From NCBI GenBank assembly GCA_016787285.1, contig JAEUUV010000258.1, positions 1 to 60,854 on the forward strand: a stretch of 60,854 bases of DNA. Reading direction: 5' to 3'. Under the pieces are notes generated by a model, which was given only the letters and a program-made list of their open reading frames with translations, was not told where the DNA came from and did not search any database. This document shows, in pieces, positions 42,751-44,568 of this stretch. Origin of the DNA: Saprospiraceae bacterium (lineage in GTDB: Bacteria; Bacteroidota; Bacteroidia; Chitinophagales; Saprospiraceae). How positions within the stretch are numbered: position 1 is the first letter of the stretch; each line of letters opens with the position of its first letter. The position numbers and the translations under genes were made by a program.

Positions 42751-44568
42751 TTATTCGTCCAACTTAAGATCGAAGCGGTTTAACAGATCGGCAACCAAAG
42801 GGTTCACTTCCCGCATTTTGTCCAATTTCTCCTTCGTGGTCAGCGGGCGCTTGGGCTGGGCGGCCGCCTGTGCTTCAGCCATTTTGGCTTCGTCCAGTTC
42901 CACCCGGATTTTTATCGCCGGGTCGTGCAGGTGGGTGCGGAGGGTATCGAGCAGGTGCGTCAGCTCCTCCAGGATCAGCGCGCGGTGCACGGTCAGGCCT
43001 ACGGTGACCACCACGGTTTTGTCGTCGAGGCGCAGCGATGCGCCCGTCATGGCCTGCCGGAGTGTGGGCGAGGGCGTTGTTTCGGCAAAGGCCCGCCATT
43101 CCGATGCGGCATTGTCGAGCGAGAGGCGGCTCTCCCGGCCGGCCCGTTCGATTTCTTCCACGGCAACGGCCTCTTCAAAATCTTCCAGGCGCAGGGATAC
43201 TTTTTCCGCGCGTTTAAGCCCCAGACGCAGGTCGCTCTTGAGTGCGGTCATCGCTTCGGCGTTCAATTCGTGCGCCGTGGAGGGCGGATGTACGATGGGC
43301 GGCGCGTGCTGCACGGTAACCGGGGCGCGGTTGGTAACCGGGACGGACTGTGCCGGGGCTGCTATGGATTCGTGGGCATTGCTTTTCCCAGGATTCCCGC
43401 CCTGAGCCTGCTGTCGGTGGGCTTCCGTTACGTCAGGAGTTTTTTTTTCCAGGGTTTCTGCGGCGGCTACGGCGCGGTTGATGTAGCACATTTTCAACAG
43501 GGCCATTTCCACGTGCAGGCGTTTGTGGCGGGCCATTTTCAGGTTTACGTCGCAGTCATTGGCAAACTGGAGTGCGGAGAGCAGGAAAGCGGTCGGCGCC
43601 AGTTCGGCCTGCCGGCGGTAGCGTTCGCTGAGGGATTCGCCCACTTCGAGCAGGTCGAGCGTGGCGGGGACTTTGCACACCAGCACGTTGCGCAGGTGTT
43701 CGGCTAAGCCGACGAGGAATACTTCCGGCTCGAAGCCCTTGCGCAGAATTTGATCGAACAGGTGGAGTATGGAGGCCGAATCTTCGGCCATGAGCGCGTC
43801 GGTGATCTGGAAATAGTAGTCGTAGTCAAGTACGTTGAGGTTCTCGATCACGTCTTCGTACCGGATTTTTTTGCCGGCGGAGGCGCTGGTAATGCGGTCG
43901 AAGATGGACAGGGCATCGCGCAGGGCGCCGTCGGCTTTCTGGGCGATGATGTGCAGGGCGCCCTCGTCGGCGTCAATCCCTTCCTGTGCGCAGATGTTTT
44001 GCAGGTGCGCCACCATGTCGGCCACGCCGATGCGGCGGAAGTCAAATATCTGGCAGCGCGACAGGATGGTGGGGATGATCTTGTGTTTCTCGGTGGTGGC
44101 CAGTATAAAAATGGCGTAGGGCGGCGGCTCTTCCAGCGTTTTCAGAAACGCGTTGAACGCGCCCTGCGAGAGCATATGCACCTCGTCAATGATGTACACT
44201 TTGTACTTGCCGCGTTGTGGCGGAACGCGCACCTGATCCACGAGTGCGCGGATGTGATCCACCCCGTTGTTGGAGGCGGCGTCCAGTTCAAAAATATTCC
44301 AGGAGGCATCTTCCTGAAAAGCCTTGCAGGAAGAGCACGTGTTGCAGGCTTCGTATTCGGGCGAGAGGTTTTCGCAGTTCAGGATTTTGGCCAGGATGCG
44401 TGCGCAGGTGGTTTTGCCTACGCCGCGCGGCCCGCAAAACAGAAAAGCATGCGCCACGTGGTCGGTGGCAAGGGCATTTTTCAGGGTCTGGGCGACGTGC
44501 TGCTGGCCCACCACGTCTTCGAAACGCCGGGGACGGTACTTGCGGGCAGAAACGACGAAGTTGCTCAT
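42751..44568 (-). CDS. dnaX: DNA polymerase III subunit gamma/tau
   Basis: A 605-residue DnaX, the clamp-loader ATPase. Walker A is GPRGVGKTT, the zinc site has four Cys (CENLSPEYEACNTCSSCKAF), Walker B is IIDEVHMLS, sensor 1 is ATTEKHKI, and the SRC motif is LSRCQIFDF. Domain III ends near residue 370; the C-terminal tau region is divergent. A run of nine A lies at codons 374-377 (GAA AAA AAA ACT, 43440-43448); a shift to -1 would give AAC TCC TGA and a 378-residue gamma-like product. The -7 box TACTTTTG ends six bases before the start. The longer TTG start at 44577 overlaps that box. Confidence 0.96.
   Translation of the reverse strand: MSNFVVSARKYRPRRFEDVVGQQHVAQTLKNALATDHVAHAFLFCGPRGVGKTTCARILAKILNCENLSPEYEACNTCSSCKAFQEDASWNIFELDAASNNGVDHIRALVDQVRVPPQRGKYKVYIIDEVHMLSQGAFNAFLKTLEEPPPYAIFILATTEKHKIIPTILSRCQIFDFRRIGVADMVAHLQNICAQEGIDADEGALHIIAQKADGALRDALSIFDRITSASAGKKIRYEDVIENLNVLDYDYYFQITDALMAEDSASILHLFDQILRKGFEPEVFLVGLAEHLRNVLVCKVPATLDLLEVGESLSERYRRQAELAPTAFLLSALQFANDCDVNLKMARHKRLHVEMALLKMCYINRAVAAAETLEKKTPDVTEAHRQQAQGGNPGKSNAHESIAAPAQSVPVTNRAPVTVQHAPPIVHPPSTAHELNAEAMTALKSDLRLGLKRAEKVSLRLEDFEEAVAVEEIERAGRESRLSLDNAASEWRAFAETTPSPTLRQAMTGASLRLDDKTVVVTVGLTVHRALILEELTHLLDTLRTHLHDPAIKIRVELDEAKMAEAQAAAQPKRPLTTKEKLDKMREVNPLVADLLNRFDLKLDE
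43440..43448 (-). promoter_or_regulatory. A9 slippery run in dnaX (candidate frameshift/slippage site)
   Basis: Nine consecutive A on the coding strand are followed by CTCCTGACG. In the -1 frame the next codons are AAC TCC TGA, so slippage would end the protein just after domain III, as known for gamma in E. coli (ribosomal) and Thermus (transcriptional, also on A9). Confidence 0.65.

Follow-up and report, generated by a model that had tools for sequence, protein, structure and literature searches.

Does the dnaX gene of this Saprospiraceae bacterium encode one form of its clamp-loader subunit or two? The question is raised by nine consecutive A's within the reading frame, at a place where slippage would release a short, gamma-like protein next to the long tau form. 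The stretch of DNA analysed here (the window) comprises 60,854 nucleotides and is contig C176 of a draft genome of 5.56 Mb in 345 contigs.

The dnaX gene and its predicted products

The product of the gene scores 704.5 bits against the NCBIfam equivalog NF011531 (cutoff 685), which identifies the gene as dnaX. Pfam places PF13177 at residues 21-179, PF22608 at 186-224 and PF12169 at 239-370, so that the protein has the make-up of a clamp-loader AAA+ ATPase with domain III. The features of the locus are the following.

42751..44568, minus strand: dnaX, DNA polymerase III subunit gamma/tau, tau form, 605 aa and stop (ORF, translation, NCBIfam NF011531)
43459..44568, minus strand: domains I-III (AAA+ ATPase, lid, domain III), residues 1-370, common to tau and the short form (Pfam)
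43440..43448, minus strand: putative A9 slippage run, codons 374-377 GAA AAA AAA ACT (sequence; kept in relatives)
43433..43435, minus strand: TGA ending the -1 frame, reached if the mRNA gains one A or the ribosome shifts by -1; predicted gamma-like product of 378 aa (sequence)
43428..43430, minus strand: TAA ending the +1 frame, reached if the mRNA lacks one A or gains two; predicted gamma-like product of 379-380 aa (sequence)
42754..43439, minus strand: linker and tau C-terminal region, tau only (ORF, translation, tau-tail profile)

With residue 370 as the last of domain III (PF12169), the run starts directly behind this domain, as a first-pass annotation of the sequence had stated. Its reading of nine A's at 43440-43448, in codons 374-377 of a 605-aa dnaX frame, is exact on the minus strand, and its -1 frame of AAC TCC TGA with a product of 378 residues is right as well. 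With one extra A the product would end in EKKNS and have a predicted mass of 42.4 kDa. The short gamma-like product that this annotation expected from slippage is supported by the conservation described below, but the stop in the +1 frame had been overlooked: with one A fewer, the predicted product has 379 aa, ends in EKKLLT and has a mass of 42.5 kDa. The two off-frame stops lie 2 and 3 codons from the run. Tau (605 aa, predicted mass 67.3 kDa) is encoded in a single frame of the window gene, whereas in 38 relatives it can only be made by a frameshift.

Frequency of A-runs in the window and the genome

The run at 43440-43448 is the sole A9 of the window, both strands counted. Since 84 of 100 shuffles of the window hold at least one A9, its presence alone is not unusual, and with 77 A9 words on the forward and 46 on the reverse strand (overlapping words counted) A9 alone is not rare across the organism's own genome either. 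The window-wide shuffle thus gives no significance by itself and was dropped as support for the run; the case rests on conservation. That all lysine codons within the run are AAA was likewise set aside as evidence, being true by definition. Elsewhere in the same genome, 38 consecutive A's (G000:C54:5362-5399) form a stretch of overlapping A9 words.

Conservation of the run among relatives

The comparison comprises 270 distinct dnaX loci. For the genus, 42 genomes were searched and all 40 loci were taken; the rest of the family is represented by 86 loci of other genera among the matches listed, mostly the better-scoring ones and about one per genus (274 of 298 genomes had a match). The order contributes 23 loci (58 of 60 genomes with a match), and 18 loci from other orders of the class were combined with 28 from the phylum's other classes (a match in 196 of 198 genomes). 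These loci of order, class and phylum are mostly one per family, some of them picked for a short-looking open frame. A named sample of 80 loci adds 75 new ones. Left out before counting were L002-L006, which are weaker matches elsewhere in the organism's own genome, and five duplicates (L201, L202, L203, L205 and L240), of which L202 and L203 duplicate the family loci L054 and L077. The anchor was extrapolated in L186, L194 and L200.

Within 70 codons after query residue 350, a run of nine or more A's is found in 226 of 268 loci, two of the 270 being too short for this count. The upstream windows hold none (0/270, 0/270, 0/270 and 0/269 in the four full windows, 0/16 in the last) and the next two downstream windows one each (1/263 and 1/261). 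The first-pass annotation had argued from its place behind domain III that the run does not lie there by chance, and the count at the site against 0/269-270 in the four full upstream windows bears this out: judged from these sequences, neither the position nor the retention of the run is due to chance.

The run is present in 39/40 loci of the genus, 79/86 of the rest of the family, 23/23 of the order and 18/18 of the other orders of the class, and in 55/75 loci of the named set and 13/28 from other classes of the phylum. In the 39 genus loci it measures A9 or A10 while the flanks drift. In the 36 genus genes with exactly nine A's, no variation is seen in these nine, the preceding G, the following C or the T and the A of the TGA that ends the -1 frame, and the G of this TGA has a frequency of 0.97, whereas the major base of most surrounding linker positions reaches 0.3-0.8. 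The run and the -1 TGA are thus kept while the linker codons vary, which is the pattern that the earlier annotation had named as its check. It had also named interruption by synonymous AAG codons in close relatives as a result that would speak against it; one of 40 genus loci (L065) has such an interruption, and its frame is broken too.

Counted within 45 codons, the run at the site has seven A's in 4 loci and 9-13 in 226; runs of eight were not found at the site in this sample. As in Thermus, whose run has nine A's, it is thus a sense-strand run of about nine or more, A9 in the window and A9-A13 in relatives. Runs of nine or more lie in phase 0 in 19 loci, in phase 1 in 165 and in phase 2 in 43, and at least 28 phase changes are needed on a FastTree phylogeny of domains I-III.

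Off-frame stops in genes with tau in frame 0

As in the window, tau is encoded in frame 0 in 189 run-bearing genes, here called type A; four of them end at contig ends, which leaves 185 complete ones. Examples from cultured relatives are Pedobacter, Dyadobacter and Chitinophaga, with A10 in L215, L212 and L214. A stop follows within 9 codons in the -1 frame in 188/189, in the +1 frame in 179/189 and in both in 178/189, compared with 43-47% (-1) and 36-37% (+1) at random positions of the same genes (20 positions per gene and region). Nearby stops in both non-zero frames, as known from Thermus, are therefore a property of the window gene and of nearly all type A relatives, including 67 of the 74 outside the family.

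The excess is also seen at the level of single codons. Where the codon pair permits a -1 stop, the third base T that it needs is present in 38/38 cases in the genus, 55/56 in the rest of the family and 25/27 outside, where the usage of the genes themselves predicts 5.5, 14.9 and 7.3. The corresponding test of the +1 stop (23/23 against 15.8 expected, 30/31 against 19.9, and 7/8 against 5.4) points in the same direction, although more weakly and with a modest excess.

Of the 185 complete type A genes, 182 have the C-terminal region in frame 0 according to a tau-tail profile and one (L251) has it in the -1 frame, while two (L185 and L188) give no match; the profile was trained on every third type A gene and on none of type B, so that type A matches are partly self-matches. 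L251 was scored as type A because frame 0 stays open for 157 codons behind the run, and with its tau profile in the -1 frame it perhaps contains a second frame break.

Genes in which tau needs a shift

In 38 genes with A9 or longer (type B), the run is where frame 0 closes and tau is encoded in a different frame, which means that tau needs a shift. An example is L256 from Chryseobacterium. The tau frame is -1 in 35 of them and +1 in three (L148, L153 and L159). Frame 0 stops within 9 codons in 38/38 and the remaining third frame in 36/38. The tau-tail profile matches in the predicted frame in all three genes of the +1 kind and in 33 of the 35 of the -1 kind; the sequences of the two misses (L270 and L272) break off 107 and 262 bases after the anchor. 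Since the sampling was not random, the ratio of type A to type B genes is not a frequency. On the FastTree phylogeny of domains I-III (269 rows), a quick tree used without a shuffled-label control and in which L065 was entered as type B and as run-bearing, at least 21 changes between types A and B and at least 17 between presence and absence of the run are required. Simple ORF calling would make type B genes look truncated, although their tau part is intact in another frame.

Homopolymer errors of sequencing or assembly could create apparent two-ORF relatives around a run that is itself neutral. Many of the genomes are indeed drafts or metagenome assemblies, and L065 and L251 look odd. In genus g160, however, the short open frame (363-376 aa) is present in 9 of 9 genomes, with the run read in three of them (L161, L162 and L164), and the evidence from type A genes is independent of type B. 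We therefore regard errors as a highly improbable explanation.

A second possibility is that a conserved lysine patch follows domain III and the run simply results from it, without any frameshift. Every frame through the run encodes lysine, EKKT is the commonest reading (88/227), and Lys-Lys pairs upstream in the genus are written AAA AAA in 16/21 cases, so that codon preference explains part of the run there. Across all loci, however, only 84/172 upstream Lys-Lys pairs are AAA AAA, and the four full upstream windows are devoid of A9. Such a patch would also leave no reason for both off-frame stops to be kept, and it would make tau impossible in the 38 two-ORF genes. Mainly on account of these stops and two-ORF relatives we rejected a neutral lysine patch and give it hardly any credence.

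Transcriptional or ribosomal slippage

We propose that the A9 is a programmed site of RNA polymerase slippage through which dnaX yields two proteins, and the comparison makes this likely. RNA polymerase would slip on the nine A's and produce mRNAs with nine A's (or 9 +/- 3) as well as mRNAs with other numbers. Translation of the former would yield tau of 605 aa, whereas translation of the latter would terminate at the TGA or TAA close behind the run and leave a clamp-loader ATPase of about 378-380 aa with domains I-III only, that is, a gamma subunit without the tau tail. That slippage occurs in this organism, that it is transcriptional and not ribosomal, the ratio between the two proteins and the function of the short one are what we infer from the pattern of conservation.

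The main competitor is a programmed -1 shift of the ribosome on A_AAA_AAA or A_AAA_AAG, which would give the short form as in E. coli without involvement of RNA polymerase. Of the off-frame stops, that of the -1 frame shows the strictest retention (188/189 within 9 codons), any run of nine or more contains the heptamer A_AAA_AAA whatever its phase, and 35 of the 38 type B genes need -1. Moreover, A_AAA_AAG stands in frame in 17/35 type B genes of the -1 kind and in 22/185 complete type A genes, and SD-like motifs are slightly in excess upstream of the run (13/227 against 5 at a control place). On the other side, ribosomal shifting predicts neither the +1-frame stops nor the +1 type B genes. 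Nor does it predict the lack of 8-A runs in this sample, because seven A's in phase 2 and eight in phase 1 would be enough for A_AAA_AAA.

Tests restricted to simple motifs and MFE gave no consistent sign of stimulators of ribosomal frameshifting, be it RNA structure downstream or an SD-like motif upstream, and the E. coli-type combination of an SD-like motif upstream and a stem-loop downstream was not found by them. The mean fold z of the 55 nt behind the run is -0.26 in 39 genus genes, 0.09 in 50/79 genes of the rest of the family and -0.37 in 60/109 outside, compared with -0.11, 0.00 and 0.14 at the control place. In the window the fold z downstream of the run is -0.02, and in the genus an SD-like motif is present in 1/39 loci. 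As a C directly follows the run of the window, only A_AAA_AAA is available there and the A_AAA_AAG of the E. coli type is absent.

The termination of both off-frames favours transcriptional slippage over ribosomal shifting by -1 alone, and in excerpts of Antonov et al. 2013 (PMC3711429) orthologues that shift in opposite directions are regarded as diagnostic of transcriptional realignment. It counts against slippage that only three genes with A9 or longer need +1. Nine A's are no strict minimum, since the excerpted text of the same survey includes Chlorobium two-ORF genes with 8 and 7 A's (PMC3711429). Altogether we consider a purely ribosomal origin of the short form unlikely, while type B genes with A_AAA_AAG in frame (17/35 of the -1 genes) may use either mechanism or both.

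Loci without the run

The run is missing in 8/126 loci of the family, 20/75 of the named set and 15/28 from other classes of the phylum, so that formation of gamma via a slippage run is not universal. L262, which ends shortly behind the anchor, was scored as lacking it. In the family, two of the eight loci (L118 and L130) have A7 at the site and five (L057, L058, L083, L119 and L121) have the site without a run. The eighth is L065 (genome G023), the sole genus locus with an interrupted run (A7-G, AAAAAAAGAA); its frame 0 closes after 376 aa, tau is encoded in the +1 frame, and the interrupted run and broken frame are possibly an assembly error. Of the 20 named loci without the run, 18 are, judged from their record titles, Bacteroidales or members of families and genera that we take to belong to this order (Prevotella, Bacteroides and others), and other named Bacteroidales loci do carry it.

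Nine run-less dnaX genes of Prevotella, Bacteroides and kin (L239, L243, L254, L260, L261, L264, L265, L273 and L276) share a similar short peptide of the type SGR-PK..KP.F, about 20-30 codons after query residue 350, where the run would be. In several of them it is encoded as a GC-rich inverted repeat, e.g. GGGCGTAGCCC or GGGCTTTGCCC. Does this site represent another route to gamma, or is it a mere peptide motif? In L255, from an uncultured member of the Bacteroidales, an in-frame TAG stands directly behind domain III and the tau region continues in the same frame, which could reflect readthrough, recoding or an error. L257 has no A-run; its frame 0 ends at 383 codons and the tau profile is found in the +1 frame.

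Known systems and earlier work

The closest parallel is dnaX of Thermus thermophilus, for which transcriptional slippage on A9 was reported (Larsen et al. 2000, as cited in excerpts of PMC1088944 and PMC5009743). Both genes have nine A's on the sense strand and tau in one ORF, and, to the extent that these excerpts describe it, the Thermus gene likewise has stops nearby in both non-zero frames and a short product without the C-terminal part. Thermus belongs to another phylum, and slippage has been demonstrated there whereas it is predicted here. In E. coli, too, one gene gives tau and a truncated gamma that ends just after an A-rich slip site. The E. coli signal consists of A_AAA_AAG, stimulated by an SD-like motif upstream and a stem-loop downstream, in contrast to the genes compared here, which have no consistent sign of either stimulator.

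The GeneTack survey of Antonov et al. 2013 listed, as its excerpted text has it, 17 two-ORF dnaX genes from 12 genera, 12 of the 17 with poly-A, proposed PTR for them, named three Chlorobi and pointed to species with A10 in its Supplementary Figure S3 (PMC3711429). Like our type B relatives, these genes have poly-A where the gamma ORF gives way to the tau ORF. In contrast to the present set, in that text all of them are of the -1 kind; the window gene is type A, and +1 cases and swaps of arrangement occur among its relatives. The first-pass annotation knew of no such description for this lineage. In the literature searched, to which subscription papers mostly did not belong, we found no description of a conserved A-run in dnaX of Bacteroidota, which is no proof of absence, nor the wide conservation, the stops in both frames or the repeated swaps between tau and gamma by slippage; the two-ORF genes of the survey, three Chlorobi included, qualify the statement of the first-pass annotation (PMC3711429, in excerpt).

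As far as excerpts of their paper go, Baranov et al. considered truncating slippage hard to judge by comparison, since it creates no new coding sequence (PMC1088944). The conserved stops in both off-frames together with the swaps of arrangement supply comparative evidence of the kind that they found hard to obtain. A 2012 review, again in its excerpted part, states that signatures of frameshifting have not been kept in the dnaX of most other bacteria, which may make no gamma (PMC3290774).

Conclusion

The kept run, the stops in both off-frames and the natural swaps of frame suggest, at the level of sequence comparison, that selection maintains two DnaX forms across many families. We consider it likely that poly-A slippage after domain III is an ancient and probably ancestral route to both forms in Bacteroidia and Chlorobi-like lineages. 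The frame around the run would have been nearly free to drift, because RNA polymerase would supply all three frames anyway. Production of gamma by slippage and production of tau by slippage would thus have replaced each other repeatedly, with either direction of shift and with gamma under selection, and the run would have been lost in some Bacteroidales among others. If this ancestral route is real, gamma production would be selected in a large phylum in which it has hardly been considered. Relatives that share the run and differ in which product would depend on slippage offer natural experiments.
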